64,000 bases of DNA from Planoprotostelium fungivorum (taxonomy: Eukaryota > Evosea > Variosea > Cavosteliida > Cavosteliaceae), in contig MDYQ01000125.1 of assembly GCA_003024175.1 (NCBI GenBank), positions 19,034 to 83,033 on the forward strand. Reading direction: 5' to 3'. The position numbers and the translations under genes were made by a program. Position 1 is the first letter of the stretch, and each line of letters starts with the position of its first letter. The notes under the pieces were generated by a model. The model did not search any database. It was given only the letters and a program-made list of their open reading frames with translations, and was not told where the DNA came from. Below, piece by piece: positions 7,307 to 54,210 of the stretch.

Positions 7307-8464
7307 ATGGGTAAAGAGAAGGTCCACATTAACCTCGTCGTCATCGGTCACGTCGATGCCGGCAAGTCCACCACCACCGGTCACTTGATCTACAAGTGCG
7401 GAGGTATCGACAAGAGAACCATTGAGAAGTTCGAGAAAGAGGCCAAGGAGATCGGAAAGGCTTCTTTCAAGTACGCCTGGGTGCTGGACAAGCTGAAGGC
7501 TGAGAGAGAGCGTGGTATCACCATCGACATTGCCCTGTGGAAGTTCGAGACTACCAAGTACTACTTCACCATCATCGATGCCCCAGGTCACCGTGACTTC
7601 ATCAAGAACATGATTACCGGTACCTCTCAGGCTGACTGTGCCATCCTCGTCATTGCCTCTCCCACCGGAGAGTTCGAGGCTGGTATCGACAAGAACGGAC
7701 AGACCAGAGAGCACGCCCTGCTTGCCTTCACCCTCGGTGTCAAGCAGCTCATCGTCCTCGTCAACAAGATGGACGAGAAGTCCACCAACTACTCTGAGGC
7801 CCGTTTCAACGAGATCAGAACTGAGGTCTCCTCTTTCATCAAGAAGATCGGAGGTATCGGAACGGTACCCGTCGGTCGTGTTGAGACCGGTATCTTGAAG
7901 CCCGGAGTCTCCGTCACCTTCGCCCCCGCCGGAGTCACCACTGAGGTCAAGTCCGTCGAGATGCACCACGTCCAGCTCCCCGAGGCCAGACCCGGAGACA
8001 ATGTTGGTTTCAACGTCAAGAACGTTTCCGTCAAGGACATCAGAAGAGGATACGTCGCTGGTGATGCCAAGCAGGACCCTCCCCTCGGAACCGACTTTTT
8101 CGTCGCCCAGGTCATCATCCTGAACCACCCCGGAGAGATCCACAACGGTTACGCCCCAGTGCTCGACTGCCACACCGCTCACATTGCCTGCAAGTTTGCC
8201 GAGATCACCTCCAAGATCGACAGACGTTCCGGAAAGGAGCTCGAGGCCCTCCCCAAGTCTGTCAAGTCTGGAGATGCCGCCATGGTCAAGCTGGTCCCCC
8301 AGAAGCCAATGTGCGTTGAGACCTTCACTGAGTACCCCCCTCTCGGCAGATTTGCCGTCAGAGATATGAGACAGACCGTCGCTGTCGGTGTCATCAAAGA
8401 GGTGTCCAAGAAGGCCGCCGCCGGACCCGGAGGTGCCAAGGCCGGAAAGGCTGGAAAGAAATAA
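7307..8464 (+). CDS. EEF1A: translation elongation factor 1-alpha with internal deletion
   Basis: EF-1alpha delivers aminoacyl-tRNA to the ribosome with GTP. The single-exon frame starts [19 protein letters not shown] and shows G1 (GHVDAGKST), G3 (DAPGHRDF) and G4 (NKMD). It then jumps from the end of the G domain (SSFIKKIGG) straight into domain 2 ([12 protein letters not shown]). Family members are about 455-462 residues; this one is 385. Roughly 75 residues are absent, including the G5 SGW region and the start of domain 2, all in frame. The junction is the 9-bp AAGATCGGA at 7844-7852, the sequence expected on both sides of the missing part. Domains 2 and 3 are otherwise complete, and the C-terminus ends GKAGKK, TAA. 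The lack of introns and highly codon-biased sequence suit a strongly expressed gene. It is either a collapsed assembly, a defective copy, or a genuinely deleted gene. Confidence 0.93.
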
Positions 8465-41373: not shown

Positions 41374-41854
41374 GATCGGTCAGTGTGTGTCACTGATCTT
41401 CTTCTGGGCTTCAAAAATGTAGGGAGAAGACTAGTGTGACGTGCAACCAGGGAATGGTGGCTGGATCACTTTCAGAAATGGGCCCCCGTTTTGTATGGAG
41501 AAAGACGAAGTCATCCACAAACAACGAGACACATTTTATATACCACGTCAGGCCGTTTTCCTTTTTCTACCACGTCTTTTATCTCACTCCTTGTGTGCAT
41601 GATGTCGAATGTTCTCTGGGAAGGCATCAGATATAAACCTGATGAAATCGAGGTCGATCCACAATCGGATCGATCAAAATGTGAATGCTTCCATCTTGCA
41701 TCAGCTTCGAGAAAGCCATCCCTAATCCGAACTCTATTGTGATCGCGATCGTCTTAAATCAAGTTCATTCGAATGCGAAGCGCTGGATGATGTCGATGTC
41801 AAACAGGAAATAAACACAGCAATCGCATCTTCACAATTTCCCTGCCGCGTCAAC
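41374..41854. promoter_or_regulatory. divergent region between GRP170 and repeat-family copy A
   Basis: 480 bp between opposite start codons. The part from ~41740 onward is nearly the same as the sequence upstream of copy C (53962-54110 on the minus strand): both contain GATCGTCTTAAATCAAGTTC and a GAAATAAACACAGCAATCGC stretch. The 5' flank was therefore duplicated with the gene. An ER-stress element was not identified. Confidence 0.45.
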
Positions 41855-44645
41855 ATGCAACAGCAACCTCTCACAAGTGATTACTCTTCTTGACACCTAC
41901 CATGCCAACCCCTGCGCAGCGGGGAAAAATTATAGACACCTTCTGAAGGACTGCCTCGATAATGTCGCAGAGACCGATCGAGTCAGCGACAGCGGTATCC
42001 TAATGATCGAAGGGTCAGCTGGAATCTATATTCATGGTTTTGGTGAAATCGGGTTGCCACTACATCCACTGGTGGTGGCTGAACTGAAGAAGACGGGACG
42101 TAGAGAGAGCGAGCATTTCTATCGTTGGGAGGCAGGCGAAATGCCTCATCAGGTGAAGTCTGTGACTGTGAGAAGCGATGTGAATGGAAGACAGGTATCG
42201 ATCAAAAACAAAGAATGGATCTTAAAAGTGACCAACCAATTGGGGGAGGTGTGACCCGTGTGCCTTCTCTAGCTCATGCGAACAGGTGACGCGTCGTCTG
42301 GGGAAAGAAATGAGGAAAGGAGACCAAATGATAGAACTCAAATGTTTGATGCTAGAAGAGGCGTCTGTAGATCCAGCACGATGGTCGGTAGAGGTAAGCT
42401 GTCATCATGTTGCAGCTCCCGAAAATAAACCGTGGAAAGGCAGGTGTAGGTGCGTTCGCCATTCTGAATGTCATTCTCCCCACATCACACAAAGGTGACG
42501 GAAGAACGAAAGAAGAACTAAAAAGTGAGACAGGTGGCAACACCACAATCTGGAACAATCCAGATAGGGAGTACCAAAACACGAGTGAACAAAGTCCCTA
42601 CGAGCTCCAATATCTCTCTTATTTGAAGGATTGTAAGATAACATCAGAGCCCATCACGGAAGGGTACAGACTGCAATTATCGTTCGCAATCTCCACGAGA
42701 GGTGATGTCATTTCGTGTTCCCCATTTTTTGCGATCTAATGTTCATGTCTTTCTTTTTCCTCACGCAATATATAGAAGGAGTGGCACCCCCTGTGATGTT
42801 CAGAGAAGAAGACTACATCGATGATCTGACAGAGATCGTGAGACAGTGGAAGGCAGAACAAGAGAAGACAGATTGTCTGTGTTATACTCTTTACAGCGAT
42901 GGTATTGTTGCGAGTACACGTAGAAACCAAACGAGATGCAGGATTGCAGAGGTAGAGGACCGGTGATGACGAGTGCTGAACGATGCGCAGACGTTCAAGG
43001 GTCGATTTGGCATCCATTTCAAGGTCTTCATGATCGATCGATTGTGATACAACGCATTTTTTACGATTATGATTGATCGCAGGCAGTGAGAATAACTCGA
43101 ACTACGTCAAGTCATCCACACATCTGGGCAATTTTTGCCTTGAAGGTGACGGGGACATTATGCATCTCTTCGTCACACACGTACAGATTCTTGTTGGGTC
43201 AACGGAATTATCAATCGTCAAGCGTGTTTAATCTTCTCCTTCTTGGATGATGTGTGGACATTGAAAGTGTATTCACCTGATATATGAATAGGAAGAGTTG
43301 GTCTTGCGATATGGTTCGTCAAATGACTACTTTCATTTTCTGTTCAGAAGAGCAGAGTGTCCATCGTCTGGAGTGGAAGGAGATAGAGACAACCTGGGGG
43401 TCATGCAGAGAGTGCCCGATGACATCTTCGACCACATCTTGACTTACTACGTTCCACCTCTAGAGATGAAGGGGATGTACTTGGCATCGAGGAGTTACAT
43501 GGTCAGAGCACGCAGCGTCATCGAGACTGCAGTCGATCGACTGATCAAGGTGATGAGCATCATCTGATCATCCGTCATCTGATCATCCACCTTCTGATCA
43601 TCTGTGACACGATACACGATGTCCATCTGTGATCCTATCCGACCCAACGATGATCTGTTTACCATCGAAATATCTGATGACATCCATCCTGTTCACTTGG
43701 CCTCTATTGACCAAATTTGCCGACAACATGCATGAATATCCATCATTTGAACTCCACGAGGAGTACATCCTCAGCCACATGCCTCCCATGTCCCTCGCAG
43801 ATCTGCATTTAGAACAATGGAGGGAGCTGATGACCTTCTTTCGAGGTCACGTCGTTGCCCCTCACATGATCAACGCAGTTCGCGATCTGATGGCTGGACC
43901 TGATGATGTGAATTGGCAGGAGGCATTCTTTGAGATCATGAACGACGTGTATTGTACCTCGCCTCCAGATAAACCGAATCTGGTGGGTTGCATCCACGTT
44001 CACCCTGTCATCATTGCCATCCATCTTCATCAGTCACCTTCGACTCATTTCTATCAGGCTCACGACGAGATGGTCCAAATGTGGATCAACAAGAGCCGCA
44101 CCGTTCACATGTGGCTCAGCTACCTCCTTGCAGAACATCTGTTCAAGGCGAGGAGATGGGAGGACTTACAGGAAGTCTGGTAGATCTTTCTACAGAGATC
44201 CGAAGCGAATTGGAAGCTGCTCTACCGCATCGGAGAGTACATCGTCAACCGTTTCACCCTCCTTGACAAAGAGGTCACATCACAGAATCCGGTGGTTCAG
44301 TCCATCGTCATAGACGTGATCGCTTTCGGTGAGAGACTCTTGGAGGAGACGGCGAGGATCAGAAGGGAGGAAGAAGAGAGGCGAGAGAGGAAGAGGGAGA
44401 AGGAGATGAACGTCAGGATACAGATGACTGAGCTGCGTTCGATCTTACATCGTCCGAGAGAAGGTCAACAAGATGGAGCCAGAGAGGAGAAAGAAGAGGA
44501 AGAAGAGGAAGAAGAAGAGGAAGAAGAGGAAGAGCAACGGGAGACGGAAGAAGAAAGAAGCAAAGGAGAGGAGAGGAAAGAAAAGAAGAGAAGTGGAGCA
44601 GAGCCTGAACAGCCTTCCACAAAGCATCAAAAGAGATCAGATTGA
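41855..44645 (+). CDS. repeat-family copy A: degenerate 2OG-oxygenase-like / F-box-like protein with poly-Glu tail
   Basis: MQQQPLT is joined over an intron to GKNYRHLLKDCLDNVAETD. An oxygenase-like section follows: GFGEIGLPLHPLVVAELK (like the LPL block of fungal-type 2OG-Fe(II) oxygenases), LNVILPTSHKGD and LKDCKITSEPITEGYRLQLSFAI, where the family would have DxxH and GYR. The expected catalytic His is Lys here, so activity is doubtful. Next come a conserved PVMFREEDYIDDLTEIVRQW exon, an F-box-like VPDDIFDHILTYYVPPLEM, and helical parts (LHEEYILSHMPPMSLADL). An in-frame TAG at 44181-44183 (EVW-stop) replaces the CAG of copy B. Beyond it, the frame runs open into KREKEMNVRIQMTE, a Glu-rich run and KHQKRSD, TGA. 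With the stop, the tail would not be made. Confidence 0.62.
44480..44590. repeat. GAAGAG-type microsatellite encoding poly-Glu in copy A
   Basis: Purine-only GAAGAGGAAGAA repeats encoding about thirty acidic residues; the minus-strand frame reads Leu/Phe-rich and is a shadow. The equivalents are at 47650-47810 (copy B, longest) and 51190-51300 (copy C, complement). Confidence 0.85.
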
Positions 44646-46125
44646 AAGCAAAAACTTTAAGAACCAAAGATTGAAGTTGGAACGAAACAAGAGTTTTCTG
44701 ATTGGTGTCTTTATCTGTGAATGAATTGGTGGGCGGATCTGATCCATGCAGCAGATCATCCACGTTGTGCAGTTTTAGATGAAGAGAGGAACGGCCGAAA
44801 CAAATTCTTGGCGGGAACTGTTGCATGATGTCAAGAGAATAAACACGATCGCATCTTCGCAATTTCAAACGGCCTCAACAGCAACGTCTCACACGTGAGA
44901 GCTCTTCGTTCATCGCACCTATCATACAAACTTTTGCGCAGCGGGGAAAGGTTATCGAGATCTTCTGAAGGACTGCCTCGACAATGTCGCAGAGTCCGAT
45001 CAAGTCAGCGACAGCGAAATCTTATCATTGGATGAGTCAACACCTGGAATCCATCTCTTTGATTTCGGCGACATCGGGCTGCCACTACATCCACTAATGG
45101 TTGCTGAACTAAAGAAGACGGGACATAGAGTGACAAAACATCTTTATCGTTGGGATGCAGGCGAAATGTCACATCAGGTAAGTCTGTGGTTGTGAGAAGC
45201 AATGTGAACCGAAGGCAGGTATCGATCGAGAACGAAGGATGGATCTCAAAGGTGGCCGACCAATTGGGAGAGGTGATGACACGAATGTCTTCTCTTCGAG
45301 CCGCATGGCTCATGTTCGCAAACAGCTCACGAAACGTCTGGGAAAAGAACTGGAACCGCAGGATCTAGCGATGGAGTTCAAATATATGACGTTAGAAGAG
45401 GCGTCTGGATGTGAAATAGAATATCCGACAGAGGTGATGTGTCATGTTACATCATTTGCAAAAGTGAATCGTGAACAGACAGAAGAGAACACGTTCGGGG
45501 TTCTAAAAGTCACACTCCCCACGCTACACAAAGGTGACAGACAAACGAAGAAGATCTAAAAAATGAAACAGGTGGCAACATCACCATCTTCAACGGTCGA
45601 TGTAAGGAGACACACGACACGAGTGAAGAGAGCGGATATGAATACCAATACCTCTCTTACTTCAAAGAATGTAAGATGAAATCGAAGCCCATCACGGAAG
45701 GGTACAGACTGCAATTATCGTTCGCAATCTCCACTAGAGGTGATGTCATTTCCATTCATCGATGTCCTTCTTTCTCCTCACGCATTGTGTAGAAGGAGTG
45801 GCACCCCCCGTGATGTTCAGAGAAGAAGACTACATCGATGAACTGACAGAGATCGTGAGACAGTGGAAGGCAGAACAAGAGGAGGCAAAGTGCCTGTGTT
45901 ACACACTGTCGTTCAACCGCGAGCTTTCAGTCAGAGACCAAACGAGGTCGAAAATCTCAACATTGATCAGAGAACGATTTGGCATCTGTGTTCACGTTGG
46001 GTACATCGATATATCGTGAGATGACGCATCGGCTTAATTTGATGATTGATGTAAGCAGGGGACGGAATATCCGCGCCATGATTCCCGGCCTGGGAAAGAT
46101 TCGTTTTGACGGTAACGATTCATCA

Positions 46126-46245
46126 TGATGTCTCACATCATATCATATCTCATCATATCACATCTCATCATATCACATCATATCACATCATATTACATCA
46201 CATCATATTACATCACATCATTTCACATCACATCGAATCATTGTA
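46126..46245. repeat. CATATCACATC microsatellite in copy B intron
   Basis: Irregular tandem ATCATATCACATC/ATCATATTACATC units. They fill a non-coding stretch between the PVMFREEDY exon and the F-box-like exon, and copies A and C have nothing like it at the same place. Confidence 0.8.
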
Positions 46246-47647
46246 AGCTGATGACGTACAGATCGATATTGGATCAACACGGTCAATCAACATAACTCTT
46301 GTCTGATCTTCTCCTTCTGCGATGATGTGAGAGGACATCGAGATGGTCCGAACCTCATGATGAACAGGAAGAGTTGATCTTACGCTACGGCATGACAAAC
46401 GACTACTTTGATTCTCTGTTCAGAAGAGCAGAGTATCCATCGTTTGGAGTGAAAGGAGATAGAGACAACCTGGGAGTCATGCAGAGAGTGCCCGATGACA
46501 TCTTTGACCACATCTTGACTTACTACGTTCCACCTTCGGAGATGTGGGGGATATGGTTTTCATCGAGGAGTTACATGGAGAGGGCACTCAACGTTGTACA
46601 TACCACAATCGATCGTCTGATCAAGGTGATGTCATCTGCTGATCATCGTCTGATCGTCCATCATCTGGTCATTCATCTTCTGATCATCTGCGATGCACGA
46701 TACACTATCTCCATCTGTGATCCTATCCGACTCAACGATGATCTGTTTACCATCGAACAGAGAGCCTGCCAGATGGGTAACACATCTATCCTGTTCACTT
46801 GGCCTCTATTGGTCCAATCCTCTGACGACATATTCGCATATCCATCGTATCGACTGCACGAGGAGTACATCCTCAGCCACATGCCTCCCCTGTCACTGCA
46901 AGATCTTCGTTCGACGTATTGGAATGACTTGATCGTCCTCTTTGGAGGACACGTTGTAGCACCTCACATGATCGATGCAGTTCGCAAATTACTGAACGAA
47001 TTCGATGACTCGGAGTCGCAGGATGCACTCTACAAACTCATGAATGACGTCAATTGTAACACGCATGGAAAACAACCAAACCTGGTGGGTCACATCTAGC
47101 TCCCTCTCATCTTCATCCTCCTCCTCTCATCATCATCAGTCACCTTTGCCTCATCATAATCATCAAGTCACCTTCAACTCGTCATCTTCACCTCATCTTC
47201 ATCTTCATCAGTCACCTTCGACTCATCTCTATCAGGCTTACAACGAGATGATCCGAATGTGGATCAACATGAGCCGTGATGATGAACTGTGGTTGGGTTA
47301 TAGCCTCACACAACATCTGTTCAAGGCGAGGAGATGGGAAGACCTGAGAGAAGTCTGGCAGATCTTTGTTGCAAACTACGAACACAACCCAAAGGAACTC
47401 TACAACCACGCAGAATGCATTGTCGACTGTTTCACCCGCCTTGACAAAGAGATCACATCATAGAATCCAGTGGTCCGGTCCATTATACTTGATGCAGTTG
47501 TGTTTGGTGAGGCCGTCTTAGAGGAGAAGGTGGCGCTCAGGAAAGAGGAAGAAGAGAGGCTGGAGAGGAAGAGGGAGAAGGAGATGAAGATCAGAACATG
47601 AACGACCCAGCTGCGTTCCATTCTAAATCTTCCAAAAGAACAACAAG

Positions 47648-47815
47648 ATGGAACTGGGGAGGAAGAAGAAGAGGAGGAAGAGGAAGAGGAGGAAGAGGAA
47701 GAGGAAGAGGAAGAGGAAGAAGAAGAAGAGGAAGAGGAAGAAGAAGAAGAGGAAGAGGAAGAAGAAGAGGAGGAAGAGGAAGAGGAAAAAGAAGAAGAAA
47801 GAAGCAAAGGAGAGG
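47648..47815. repeat. GAAGAG-type microsatellite encoding poly-Glu in copy B
   Basis: About 165 bp of GAAGAGGAAGAAGAG repeats. The serine-, leucine- and lysine-rich frames across it on both strands are translations of the repeat, not genes. Confidence 0.88.
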
Positions 47816-48084
47816 AGAGGAAAGAAAAGAAGAGAAGTGGAGCAGAGCCTGAACAGCCCTCCACAAAGCATCAAAAGAGATCAAATTGAAGGCAAAACGC
47901 GCCTGACAGTCTTAATTCACTCACCGTTCACCATACCAAGTCAAATCTTGAAGTGCCAGTCATAAATGAGATTCCATAAACTATACATCTGGCCACAGTG
48001 TCGTTACAGAGTAAACTCTTCATAGAGGTAACGTCCACATCATCCGCATCATCACATCGTCTTTATTTTAACTGGGCGATGGGT

Positions 48085-50613
48085 TCAGTTGATCGCCCTC
48101 TTCTTGAACAAGATCTTTGCTGTCTGATTGGGCAGACAGTGAGCGGAGAACCACATGTCGCTGGGGCGCTGTCCTTCCACTTCGGTCTTCACGTCGTAGG
48201 TCAACAAAACGTGAGCCAGCATGGCCTTCAGCTCATTTGCGGCGAAGAATCGTCCCGGGCTGAGTGGCTGAGTTCAGATGCGGACATGATGCGAGATGAG
48301 ATGGAGTTCAGATGATGGATGGGGGACTCACCATGCGTGTCTTCCGTGTCCGAATGGAAGGTATTCCGTGCTGGTGGCGACCAGTTGATGTTTCTCTCCC
48401 TCTCCTGTCGTCCTTCAGTTCATTCGACCGGTGATGATGTCGATCGTCACCGTCTCCGTCTCGTAGATCTGCGAAGCGGAATGGTTTGAACTCCTCTGGA
48501 TTCTCATATATTTTGGGATCCATGTGAATTCCACCACTCGCCACACCTACATTTCATCATCAACATCAACCTGTTCATGATCGNGTTCAGATGATGGAGA
48601 TGGCGGACATGATGTGATGATGCGAGATGGAGATCAGATGATGGAGGACTCACCATGCGTGTCTTCCGTGTCCGAATGGAAGGTATTCCGTGCTGGTGGC
48701 GACCAGTTGATGTTTCTCTCCCTCTCCTGTCGTCCTTCAGTTCACTCGACCGGTGATGATGTCGATCGTCACCGTCTCCGTCTCGTAGATCTGCGAAGCG
48801 GAATGGTTTGAACTCCTCTGGACTCTCATATATCTTGGGATCCATGTGAATTCCACCACTCGCCACACCTACGGCTCATCATCAACAACATCAACAACAT
48901 CATCATCATCGACATCTACATGATCGTGACGATGATCCACGTCGATGGGAAGAGATCAGATGACCCACCGATGTGATGTCCGTGAGGAACGTGAGTTCCG
49001 TTCGAGAAGGTGAATCCCTCTTGTCTCATCACCCTCCTGTCCATGGTGAGAGCGGAGAGACCGTTGACTCTCTGCGATTCCTTCAGGAAAGAATCGACTT
49101 TTCTCAGGCGAATCATGGACAATTTCGACCAGCCGTGCTCCGTGGTGACCTCCAACACTTCTCTTCTCATGATGTCGGCCCAATCGGGGTGGGCGGCCAG
49201 GGTGAATAATGCTTGTGTGAAGCTCTGGACATGAGTCAGTGTCGGTGATGGTTGATGGAGATCGTGATGATGGAGATCACGGTGATGGAGATTGCGATGA
49301 TGGAGATCACGATGATGGAGATTACGATGATGATCCGATCGCAATTGATTGCGATTGCGATCGTGATGGTGATGTGATGATCACGATGTTGATGGTGATG
49401 AGAATTCTGAAGAGAGAACAGAAGAGAAAAGATTTTGATGAGGGACGCACCATGCTGGACGTGTGGATGGCTGCAAAATTGACGGACAGCATCCTCTGCG
49501 TGACTGCCATCAAGTTGTACTCCTCCGGTACGTTCTCCCGGGCATGCTCCAACAGCCATTGGAGCATGTCGTTCGGTCTCGAACTCTCCGGATTTTCATC
49601 CAGATTTCTCATCCTCTCTTCCACCAACGGACGTAAGAGCTTCTGGCCCATCCTCTCTCCCTCTTTCAGTCCTCTCAAGAGGCGGGCCGCTTGACTGTTT
49701 CGAAATTTAAATTTCGGAATTGGCGGGAAGGACTCACGGTCGGAGGAATTTGGGTACTAATCCTAAGAAGAGGCTGCCTTTGGCGATCTCCATGGTATAA
49801 TTGATGTTCAACTTCTTCCACTCCTGATCTCTACCTTGATGTCGTCAGCGTCGCATTGCATGACAACATCATCACATAATGGAACCCCGACGAAGATTCT
49901 GTTGGTGACTTGAGAGACCACCTGCATGATGGTTTCGAGGGCGGGAACGGAGGCCCAATCGCCGTCGATCTTGGAGGGGATGTGACTCTCAAAACTGACC
50001 CGGATCTCGTCGATGATGTCACCGAAGAGGCCTGTCTCATCTTCAGCTCGTGATGTCTTTAGAAGATGAAATGGTGAAGCGAGGAGAGTGTAGAATTGGA
50101 TAAAATGGACGACCTGGTAAAGCACGAGTGAGTTTGTTACGGATGACTTCAGTGTGCCACATGTTGTCCATCACCGCGTCTCCCATTAAGACGCGCAGGT
50201 CTAATGCTTCTTCCATGGCCGGCATGAAGTTGACGTCTTCGTCGGGGGCCCTTCTGAGTTCTTCAATCATCTTTTGATCGCTCAGAGCCAGATAACTTCG
50301 TCTCATATCAGGCACTTGAAAGTATTTATGCTAGAGGAAAGTCAGACGTGAAAGAGCATGAGCAGAATACCTTCTTGTAGCCTGTGACCACCATATCTCG
50401 AGCTTTGCCCAGAAAGATTAGAGGACCTAACCATGCGGTGAACCATCCGTTGGGTCCGATGTATGGAATCTTAGACTGCCGTCGCTAATCAACATCTAAT
50501 CACATACGAACATTTCGACTCACACTGCGTCGGCCGCTCACATTGAGAGCGAATGCGATGAAGAGGATGGATATCGTAGCGAATAGAACGAACGATTGGG
50601 GAAGGCCGTCCAT
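48085..50613 (-). CDS. cytochrome P450, fungal type
   Basis: A haem monooxygenase. Start at 50613 gives MDGLPQSFVLFATISILFIA, an N-terminal ER anchor, then IPYIGPNGWFTAWLGPLIFL. Further exons: FMPAMEEALDLRVLMGDAVM (B-helix region), the I-helix SVNFAAIHTSS in place of the usual AGxDT, a pattern known in fungal P450s, K-helix ExxR as LKESQRVNG, a PEEFKPFRF PERF-type motif, and haem-binding FGHGRHACPGRFFAANELK, assembled across an intron whose donor follows GGAAGACACGCATG. The C-terminus ends KILFKKRAIN, stop TGA at 48087-48085. The PERF/haem exon is present twice around the N at 48584. The substrate is unknown. It sits between copies B and C of the repeat family. Confidence 0.85.
48324..48550. 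repeat. P450 exon duplication, copy 1
   Basis: This 227-bp block carries the PERF-type exon (SGGIHMDPKIYE, PEEFKPFRF) and the FGHGRHA part. It is repeated at 48646-48872 with three C/T differences found by eye. Copy 1 connects in frame to the terminal CPGRFF exon. Confidence 0.9.
48646..48872. repeat. P450 exon duplication, copy 2, next to an N
   Basis: Second copy of the 227-bp block, beginning 62 bp after the single N at 48584. Flanking bases are also alike, both copies having a GTTCAGATGATGGA motif near the left edge. A functional P450 needs only one of them, so this is probably an allelic copy placed in tandem by assembly. Confidence 0.85.
49240..49345. repeat. GATGATGGAGATCACG minisatellite in P450 intron
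   Basis: Tandem units near GATGGAGATCACGATGATGGAGATTGCGAT. They lie in the P450 intron between the I-helix exon and the exon with ExxR. The His/Arg/Asp-rich frames over it are not real coding. Confidence 0.8.
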
Positions 50614-51115
50614 GTTGTGGTGTTACCTGCTGGATTTTGTTGGGGTATCTTAACGCCCGCGGGCCCTAGCCTCGGTAATATGTCTAAGATAAATTCACCA
50701 CGTTAGTAAGAAAGGTCGCAGCTGTCGAACACTTTTCTCACGATGCATCGTCTCTTCACATTGTTGGAACAGATTTGGGTAGCATTGTCGTCTGATGGTT
50801 CAAAGTTTAGACATGACGATGAAGAGATACAAAGATAGAATCGGATCGATCGTTCGCACTAGTGAGGAGGTGTTTGAGAGAGGTCTCTACATTAGTGGAT
50901 TCGTGGGCCTATGTCTCGATGAAAAATGAGATCATCGTCTTGTGGCGATGATCAACAACGATTTGATCTCTCATCGAACACTTTTCTAGATGATCGTATT
51001 CCGCGTCCCTTCGACGTGATGTGCGAAATTGATCAGGTTCCTATTGAAGAAAACTGCACGAGCCAGTGACAAAAACTGATTTATTTCAATCTCCTTGCCA
51101 GGGCTCTTTTTGCCT

Positions 51116-53961
51116 TCAATCTGATCTCTTTTGATGCTTTGCGGAAGGCTGTTCAGGCTCTGCTCCACTTCTCTTCTTTTCTTTCCTCTCCTCTCCTTTG
51201 CTTCTTTCTTCTTCCGTCTCCCGTTGCTCTTCTTCCTCTTCTTCTTCTTCCTCTTCCTCTTCTTCTTCCTCTTCTCTGGCTCTGTCTTCTTGTTGGCCTC
51301 CTCTCACATGTTCCAAGATGAAACGCAGCTCGGTCATCTGTGTCCACACTTTTTTCTCCTTCTCCCTCTTCTTCTCCAACCTCTCTTCTTGCTCTTTCCT
51401 GATCCTTGTCTTCTCATCCAAGACTACCTGACCATACGCGATCACGTCGATGATAATGGAGCGGACCACTGGATTCCGTGATGTGATGTCGTTGTCATGG
51501 AGGGCGAAACAGTTGACGATGAATTCTCCTTCGTGGAATAGCTTATTCGTATCGTCTCCATATCTCGTGAGATATATCTCCCAGACTTCTGCCAAGTCAT
51601 GCCATCTCCTCGCCATGATCAGATGTTGTGTGAGGCGATAACCCAGCCACAGTTCATCGTCATGGCTCTTATTGATCCACATTCGGACCATCTGTTCGTA
51701 AGCCTGATAGAGATGAGTCGAAGGTGACTGATGAAGATGATGATGATGACTCGAAGGTGACTGGCAATGGATGATGATGAGTCAAACATGGATGATGCTG
51801 GATGATGTCGGATGATGATGATGAGCCGAACGTGAGTGTTCATGAGAGGACAGTTTGACTCACCGGATTCAGTTCATCCGGATGCAAGGTACAGGCGATT
51901 TCGTTCATGATCTCGTACATTGCACACTGCGACTCGATATCATTATATATGGCCAGCAAATTGTGAACTGCATCGACCATGTGAGGGGCAACAACGGGGA
52001 CTCCAAAGATGGCAATCGGATTCTGCCAGCGATCACAGCGTAAATCCAAGGCAGACATGGGAGGCATGTGACTGAGGATGTACTCCTCGTGCAGTTGATA
52101 CGATGGGTAATCGAACACGCCGTCGGCGTGTTTGGCCAATAGAGGCCATGTGAACAGGATGGATGTTTTACCCATCTGGCAGGCTCTCTGTTAGATCGTA
52201 AACAGATCATCGTTGGGTCGGATAGGATCACAGATGGACATCGTGTATCGTGCATCATGGATGATGGATGATCAGATGATCATCACCTTGATCAGTCGAT
52301 CGACTGCAGTTTCGATGACGCTGCGTGCTCTGACCATGTAATTCCTCGACACCAAGTACATCCCCGTCATCTCTAGAGGTGGAATGTAGTAAGTTAAGAT
52401 GTGGTCAAAGATGTCGTCTGGCACTCTCTGCATGACTCCCAGATTGTCTCTATCTCCTTCCACTCCAGACGATGGACACTGTGCTGTGTTCAACAGAAAA
52501 CGAAAGTAGTCGTTTGACGAGCCGTATCGTAAGATGAGATCTTCCTGTTGATATCAAATTTTCAACACGTTCAATGTCCTATCACATCATCGAAGAAGGA
52601 GAAGACCAAACAAATGTGACCGAGAGAAACTCTGTTGATGCAACAAGAATCTGTCATTGTGTGACGAAGAGATGTACGATGACCCGATCACCTTCGAAGC
52701 AAATGTCCCCCAGATGTTCAGATAAATCGATGTCAAAAGTGTTATTCTCCCTGATCACAATCAATCGTATTCGTAAATCGAGCATCGCACCACAGATGAC
52801 TGATCCTTCCAACGTGGTGACAGATGCCAAATCGATCCATCAGCACCTGTACATCGTTCAGCACTCGTCATCATCATTCATTCACCCTCGCAATCTTAAA
52901 TCTCGTTTGGTCTCCTGGAGACAGACCGTAGGAGGAGAGTGTGTAACACAGGCACTTTGTCTCCTCTTGTTCTGCCTTCCACTGTCTCACGATCTCTGTC
53001 AGACCATCGATGTAATCTTCCTCTCTGAACATCACGGGGGGTGCCACTCCTTCTACACAATGCGTGAGAAAAATGAGATTTCGCGGGAAATGAAGGAAAC
53101 AAAAAGACGTCACCTCTAGTGGAGATTGCGAACGATAATTGGACTCTGTACCCTTCCGTGATGGGCCTTGATGTCATCTCACAATCTTTCAAGTAGTAGA
53201 GGTATTGCAATTCGTATGGACTACGGTCACTTGTGTTGTGTTCCTCCCTATCTGGGCCGTTCGAGAATATGATGTTGCCACCTGTCTCACTTTTTAGTTC
53301 TTCTTTTCGTTCTTCCGTCACCTTTGTGTGATGTGGGGAGAGTGACTTTGATAATACCGAAAGCACCTACACCTGCCTTTCCACGGTTCATTTTCGAGAG
53401 ATGCGACATGATGACATCTCACCTCTACCGACCATCGTGCCGGATTTTGAGACGCTTCTTCTAACGTCAGACATTTGAATTCTACCACGTGGTCATCGAC
53501 GCTCAGTTTTTTTCCAAGAGACACCGTAACCTGTTCACATGAGCTAGAGAAGGCACATGGGTCTTAACGTCTGCCAACTGGCCGATCAGCTGTGAGATCC
53601 ATTCTTTGTTCTTGATCGATACCTGTCTTCGATTCACATTGCTTTTCACAGTCACAGACTTCACCTGATGAGGCATTTCACCTGCCTCCCAACGATAGAA
53701 ATGCTCGCTCTCTCTACGTCCCGTCTTCTTCAGTTCAGCCACCACCAGTGGATGTAGTGGCAGCCCGATCTCACCGAAATTGTGGATGTGAATTCCAGCT
53801 GATCCGTCCATTGCGAAGATGTTGCTGTCGCTGACTTGATCGGTCTCTGCGACATTGTCGAGGCAGTCCTTCAGAAGGTCTCGATAATTTTTACCCGCTA
53901 CGCAAGAATTGGCATGATAGAGAGCGATGAAGAGTAATCACTTGAGAGGTTGCTGCTGCAT
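51116..53961 (-). CDS. repeat-family copy C (inverted): degenerate 2OG-oxygenase-like / F-box-like protein with poly-Glu tail
   Basis: The best preserved member. ATG at 53961 gives MQQQPLK, then an intron and GKNYRDLLKDCLDNVAETDQ, NFGEIGLPLHPLVVAELKK, RREKEMPHQ-type region, VKSVTVKSNVNRRQVSIKN, LTLEEASQNPARWSVE, GGNIIFSNGPDREEHNTS, LKDCEMTSRPITEGYRVQLS, PVMFREEDYIDGLTEIVRQW, VPDDIFDHILTYYIPPLEM and LHEEYILSHMPPMSALDL. The last exon, from about 51691, reads on without a stop through KKREKEKKVWTQMTE, about seventeen Glu and KHQKRSD, stop TGA. A TAA (near 52195) lies before MGKTSILFTW but may fall in an intron, since an acceptor-like GCCTGCCAG follows. Its inverted orientation relative to A and B implies an inversion or dispersed copying. 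Confidence 0.65.
51190..51300. repeat. CTTCTTC microsatellite (poly-Glu of copy C, complement)
   Basis: Pyrimidine-only tract on the plus strand, purine on the coding strand. It encodes the acidic run of copy C. Plus-strand Ser/Leu/Phe-rich frames here are shadows. Confidence 0.85.
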
Positions 53962-54210
53962 GTCGATGCGGTATGGAAATTGTGAAGATGCGATTGCTGT
54001 GTTTATTTCCTGTTTGACATGGACGCTCCAGCCAGCAGTTCCCGCCTCACGCTCGAATGAACTTGATTTAAGACGATCGCACTCAAAAGAACTAGTTTGA
54101 CGATCACGATCACAAAATTGTTCAAAGCTGATGCAGAAAGAAGAAGCAATCGAACGATTCAGGATCAATCTCTCACTGTTGTACATCATCTCTGAAACAA
54201 AACTCGTAAT

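Follow-up and report, generated by a model that had tools for sequence, protein, structure and literature searches.

Three neighboring gene copies of Planoprotostelium fungivorum (A, B and C) join a degenerate 2OG-Fe(II) oxygenase fold to an F-box and a Glu-rich C-terminal region. The domain combination is well supported as real and as new in the sense of a variant, and the window, that is, the whole stretch of 64,000 nucleotides that was analyzed (C62:19034-83033, in a genome of 36.9 Mb and 471 contigs), holds three decayed members of it. On balance, the sequence evidence makes it fairly probable that A, B and C belong to a lineage-expanded family of SCF (Skp1-cullin-F-box) substrate receptors that make use of a dead oxygenase fold, with three of its members decaying at this place.

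Gene structure of the three copies

A preceding sequence-only reading had described three copies, of which A and B lie one after the other on the plus strand and C is inverted on the minus strand, with shared exons and, for A and C, a shared 5' flank. All of this was borne out. The exons were modeled from an alignment of the copies with MAFFT and with a purpose-written splice-aware profile aligner, which may, however, hide lesions inside false introns and yields uncertain C-terminal models in several relatives. The features discussed below are the following:

41855..44645, plus strand: copy A, with exon 1 (41855-41876) in frame and conserved exons and introns up to the F-box exon; probable pseudogene
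~44890..47887, plus strand: copy B, with conserved exons and an approximate 5' end; probable pseudogene
51116..53961, minus strand: copy C, with an uninterrupted frame between exon 2 and its stop codon; probably a recent pseudogene or an N-truncated gene
41792..41873, plus strand (inverted partner 53943-54024): stretch of 82 nt common to A and C at 93%, covering 5' flank and the start of exon 1
43400..43549, plus strand: F-box of copy A, in exon 43292-43549
43550..43690, plus strand: intron region of copy A, donor present and usable acceptor absent
46476..46625, plus strand: F-box of copy B, in exon 46368-46625
52586..53897, minus strand: degenerate 2OG-oxygenase half of copy C, 9 exons with introns of 38-61 nt, as placed by the gene model and by the profile alignment with bacterial 2OG oxygenases
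52287..52436, minus strand: F-box of copy C (VMQRVPDDIFDHILTYYIPPLEMTGMYLVSRNYM...), within exon 52544-52287
51864..52187, minus strand: exon of copy C after the F-box (RACQMGKTSILFTW...), first part of the C-terminal region
51116..51703, minus strand: last exon of copy C, second part of the C-terminal region, with poly-Glu (16 E) and a basic tail to TGA

The exon structure is identical in A, B and C, with short GT-AG introns, mostly of 37-75 nt, and a few longer ones around or behind the F-box exon; several of the small length differences among the copies fall in introns. Once the introns are removed, the order of oxygenase, F-box and Glu-rich tail that had been read from the unspliced letters is retained, with Glu runs of 14 residues in A, 43 in B and 16 in C. 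Some of the residues quoted in that reading turn out to be intronic: the string VKSVTVRSD is an intron that follows EAGEMPHQ and measures 42 nt in A, 41 nt in B and 42 nt in C. Removal of a further intron, inside HK-G|GN, gives the strand LPTSHKGGN, the counterpart of which in the bacterial enzyme described below is LPSxHxGGEL. The intron positions and phases of the three copies are found again in relatives on other contigs, and this recurrence, together with dN/dS values below 1 (see below), indicates that the pattern is more than chance. Between B and C, a 251-nt direct repeat (48318-48568 and 48640-48890, 97%, with an N at 48584) lies within what appears by eye to be a P450 gene and represents a local duplication or an assembly artefact.

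Homology of the N-terminal half to bacterial 2OG oxygenases and loss of the iron site

The family profile of the N-terminal half (10 rows) matches 37 bacterial 2OG-oxygenase homologs over 266 columns (hhalign 99.5%, E 2.2e-23). The bacterial set was collected with the sequence from contig C78 and a generic 2OG sequence as bait, which gave 66 loci, of which 38 were read and 37 aligned, the truncated L107 being left out. The generic sequence, which matches PF13640 at 2.1e-11, finds 7 places in the genome, namely C78 twice (6.5e-9 and 0.13), the family loci on C225 (6.5e-4) and C345 (0.078), copies B (0.085) and C (0.099) of the window, and C189 (1.15).

The C78 locus (L077, C78:1-2606, minus strand) is a relative in which the triad is intact (HRD ... 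CDCLHE); it runs towards the contig end and lacks its 3' part. The family PSSM scores 153 on it, whereas none of 30 shuffles exceeds 60.9. Its phase-1 intron inside H-x-G|G agrees in position and phase with that of the family. Among the matches listed by the genome F-box searches none falls on C78, where the gene is without its 3' part, and a C78 exon used as a genome query finds only C78 itself.

The Fe-ligand triad H, D, H is present in 38/38 canonical rows (the 37 bacterial proteins and C78), a figure that is partly true by construction, as the bait and one search pattern contain triad residues. In the merged alignment, the complete H-x-D...H triad is found in none of the 12 family rows. 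The first Fe position is occupied by W, Y, F or a gap, with a single H (in L012m, which has T at the D position); the second by V, L, S, A, K, T, M or a gap, and never by D; and the distal one by M, L, Y, I or V, and never by H. The oxygenase-like region and its lost His, as proposed from the letters, stand. Since the Fe ligands are missing from the family rows, catalysis by the 2OG/Fe site is very unlikely in every member examined. The C-terminal Arg of the x-G-x-R strand, a 2OG-binding residue in such enzymes, is kept in all 12 rows, and LPTxHxGG is almost invariant across 11 rows. These two conserved elements would fit an oxygenase half that has remained enzymatic by using different metal ligands or a different chemistry; we regard this as extremely improbable, as the Fe positions are replaced differently from member to member, with no sign of a new conserved site.

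The oxygenase half escapes Pfam. None of 11 oxygenase halves matches a Pfam 2OG model, PF13640 included, none of these 11 matches Pfam JmjC, and the 6 places found by PF13640 over the genome include no family locus. Among five pieces of the window scanned against Pfam, no single one reaches an F-box or a 2OG model, and no Pfam family beyond weak matches was found in the pieces scanned. A PDB profile search with the oxygenase half returned no oxygenase; its weak matches to PDZ chains (best 0.56) were taken as chance, and a PDZ assignment was rejected. One bacterial homolog compared with NCBIfam matched no family.

The F-box segment

The segment around VPDDIFDHIL (12-row alignment) was compared with F-boxes from elsewhere in the genome, 20 of which were chosen out of 152 genome matches to PF12937 at E <= 1. 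The F-box-like nature proposed in the sequence-only reading is supported by this comparison (hhalign 93.6%, E 2.2e-7), with a score of 32.2; of 200 column shuffles none was as good, the highest reaching 16.2. When the true F-boxes are divided into halves at random, these score 85.6 on average against each other, which, set against 32.2, identifies the segment as a diverged F-box. The F-box pieces of 4 of the 12 members match PF12937 weakly, with E 0.003 at best, and no other family is matched by as many; the three F-box pieces of the window match no Pfam family.

The low score relative to true F-boxes and the failure of the three window pieces to match an F-box model could also be accounted for by a fortuitous helical LP-motif in a diverged C-terminal oxygenase half. 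Such a coincidence is very improbable in view of the shuffling result and of two further comparisons, in which the segment does not match the C-terminal half of the bacterial enzyme (0.15%) and the oxygenase half does not match the genome F-box set (0.3%). From the first of these it also appears likelier that the F-box was acquired than that a segment of the enzyme was reshaped. A PDB profile search with the F-box piece returned no F-box; a match to a designed repeat protein, whose 1.5e-5 is the sum of several weak repeat matches, was taken as chance and rejected.

In A, B and C the F-box lies behind the oxygenase half, and the spliced models of the F-box-bearing relatives show the same order. 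The genome encodes Skp1 (3 places, best 1.5e-23) and cullin (35 places, best 3.8e-52); the cullin matches on C364 and C391 behave like the locus pairs on probably redundant contigs described below. The F-box repertoire as a whole is very large, with at least 152 matches to PF12937 (F-box-like) at E <= 1 in 36.9 Mb.

The region behind the F-box

An enzyme-type C-terminal module (DW..., C-x-x-C, FLxxP, H) was searched for gene by gene, each time within the stretch of that gene alone and against 40 shuffles. It lies within their own gene in L038a, L038b, L041 and L043, which score 122, 125, 87 and 94 against null maxima of 70, 64, 69 and 71, respectively. The signal is weak or marginal in L012p (86 against 75) and L009 (67 against 64), and the module was not detected by this test in L010, A, B and C, all four of which end in Glu-rich tails. 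With the module behind it, the F-box falls within the span of the former enzyme in these four relatives at least. The family stretch just before the F-box (0.22%) and the region behind it (0.22%) give no profile match to the bacterial enzyme.

Extent of the family in the genome

The family, initially described as one of three copies, is considerably larger: a 108-aa query from the N-terminal half matches 17 places in the genome, one of which is the next exon of B, leaving 16 loci, and all family counts are lower bounds. An F-box exon is present in 14 of these 16 loci, 8 of them found by direct search and 6 by the splice aligner, and the F-box half is absent from the splice-aligner models of C69 and C258. 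Tiny introns are numerous in the family genes and, together with the presence of F-box, Skp1 and cullin genes, mark the genome as eukaryotic. The predictions on C234 (L039) and C304 (L040) are the same; this pair and L012/L013 (C345/C385) each show one predicted sequence on a long and a short contig, and the contigs are probably redundant. A further family piece lies on C343 near 32 kb. The 12-row F-box alignments left out L013 (same prediction as the C345 copy) and L040 (same as L039), and also L042, L044 and L045; in addition to these, the 11-row oxygenase-half alignment was made without L012p and L012m, and the 10-row oxygenase profile for the bacterial comparison without A, B and L012p.

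Decay, constraint and gene conversion

Damage is present in each of the three window copies, and a view of them as working genes is not supported. In copy A, exon 1 is in frame, as it is in L038a, L038b, L041 and L043, but the intron behind the F-box exon has lost its usable acceptor, the sole AG between 43550 and 43730 being at 43556, 6 nt past the donor, and an in-frame TAG occurs at 44181. The start-codon region of copy B is 7 nt shorter than those of A and C and the start is lost; an in-frame TAG (47461) and an in-frame TGA (47599) are present as well. Exon 1 of copy C (53961-53942) is 2 nt shorter than that of A, which breaks the frame. Judged by these lesions, A and B are probably pseudogenes, and C is probably a recent pseudogene or an N-truncated gene.

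Several stops at Gln-like positions had raised a changed genetic code as an explanation. This was dropped, as an EF1A-like ORF in the window (7307-8464, 385 aa) ends in TAA, so that stops are to be read by the standard code, and as an apparent stop in copy C is intronic. The same EF1A-like ORF seems to be about 70 residues short between FIKKIG and GGIGTVPVG when compared with the expected sequence; an internal deletion, an odd paralog or an assembly collapse may be behind the gap.

The family is young only in a relative sense. Exon identity is 80.2% for A-C, 76.0% for A-B and 77.1% for B-C, and dS over all codons amounts to 0.43, 0.63 and 0.46, respectively, which does not agree with the youth suggested earlier. 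Aligned intron columns are closer than exon columns in the three comparisons (0.856 vs 0.802 for A-C, 0.802 vs 0.760 for A-B and 0.789 vs 0.771 for B-C).

The damage bears on an alternative explanation, namely that A, B and C are nothing but pseudogenes and that all family members are relics left by a lost enzyme, which drift and no longer have a function. Besides the lesions of A, B and C, the loss of the F-box half in C69 and C258, the absence of the iron triad from all members and the stops or frame breaks in the models of L010, L043, L039, L012m, L012p and L011, some of them possibly model errors, are in line with it. Constraint on the protein is evident, however: dN/dS is 0.36-0.57 over all codons in nine pairs, 0.22-0.52 in the F-box (eight pairs with any F-box change) and below 1 in each pair and sub-region with changes (0.22-0.68). 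Furthermore, intron phases and the F-box are retained in divergent members, and L009, L038a, L038b and L041 are free of lesions as far as position 520-597 of the 599 profile positions, in splice models in which false introns could mask one. A family made up entirely of relics is thus unlikely.

Two tandem paralogs on C192 (L038, C192:21500-31400) share an identical tract of 252 nt, which takes in the complete F-box and the intron after it and extends 50 nt further; their F-box codons are identical, although dS is 0.42 over all codons. An identical tract amid otherwise diverged sequence indicates that gene conversion is acting on this pair.

Relation to described proteins

The bacterial PF13640-type oxygenases (e.g., L084, with an open frame of 758 aa, and L106, with 827 aa) share the N-terminal half with the family over the matched columns and have the C-terminal Cys/FLxxP/H module in common with four of its relatives. 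They differ from it in that the 37 aligned proteins keep H-x-D...H, in a set whose bait favors the triad, and in that the F-box of the family is unmatched in their C-terminal half. KDM2A and KDM2B combine JmjC and F-box in one chain and are demethylases with CXXC, PHD and LRR parts; the likeness to the family lies in the pairing of a 2OG-superfamily domain with an F-box. FBXL5 likewise pairs its F-box with a metal-binding fold, in this case an iron-binding hemerythrin (PMC10032465); in contrast to this iron binder, the family described here has lost its iron ligands and has a different fold.

The order of domains had been put forward as one without a described precedent, and a protein of exactly this make-up was not found in the open-licence literature on F-box and oxygenase combinations or on F-box expansion. 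An F-box and a 2OG-superfamily oxygenase in one protein are, however, already known from Dictyostelium, where JcdI/Fbxo13 and JcdH have an F-box joined to a JmjC dioxygenase (PMC9485057). These protist proteins are the nearest described design. Their JmjC domain is of the JmjD6 type, JcdI is enzymatically active, the F-box is near the N terminus, ahead of the oxygenase domain, and there is conservation across protists (PMC9485057), whereas the family reported here has a PF13640-type fold, has lost the triad, carries its F-box after the oxygenase and is expanded in one genome. Mutation of the JcdI F-box abolishes co-precipitation of Skp1 (PMC9485057). The O2 effect of JcdI overexpression is independent of the F-box (PMC9485057), which weighs against the receptor interpretation given below.

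The same paper suggests that JcdI is down-regulated through Skp1, and some Fbxo-type proteins may themselves be substrates (PMC9485057), which raises the alternative that the F-box is a true one while the protein is regulated or degraded via Skp1, or is active outside SCF, and does not receive substrates. We consider this rather unlikely for the family, in which no activity would be left to regulate, so that a scaffold or receptor role appears to fit better.

Proposed role and significance

According to the substrate-receptor interpretation, the N-terminal half would be a 2OG-Fe(II) oxygenase that has lost its catalysis and that is related to a PF13640 enzyme of bacterial type. The F-box lies between this fold and a C-terminal region that ends with the enzyme's own Cys-containing module in four relatives and with a Glu-rich tail in A, B and C. 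From its anatomy, the F-box is expected to bind Skp1 and so to make the protein an SCF receptor with a role in a ubiquitin ligase, and the dead fold, with its pocket-side Arg kept and no complete iron site, may present a substrate-binding surface. Birth, death and gene conversion would shape the family, with A, B and C at the death end and relatives without visible lesion elsewhere. Of this picture, the homologies, the lost triad, the order of the domains, the constraint on the protein and the damage in A, B and C are observed, and Skp1 binding, the ubiquitin-ligase role and recognition of substrates by the dead fold are inferred. A more far-reaching version, which we consider improbable, proposes an expanded SCF-receptor repertoire in which the 2OG fold without iron but with the 2OG-site Arg would let substrate binding be gated by 2OG or a similar acid, yielding a metabolite-sensing, iron-free E3 receptor, with the F-box homogenized by gene conversion and the receptor surface diverging as in an arms race over targets.

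The family offers a traceable case of the passage from an enzyme to a putative ubiquitin-ligase receptor, as one genome contains C78 with its intact triad, members that lack the triad but have no visible lesions, and the decaying copies A, B and C, with shared introns as markers. As substrate receptors, its members would widen the range of folds used as substrate-binding parts of F-box proteins and would provide protists, beside their JmjC-F-box proteins, with a dead counterpart of the PF13640 type.
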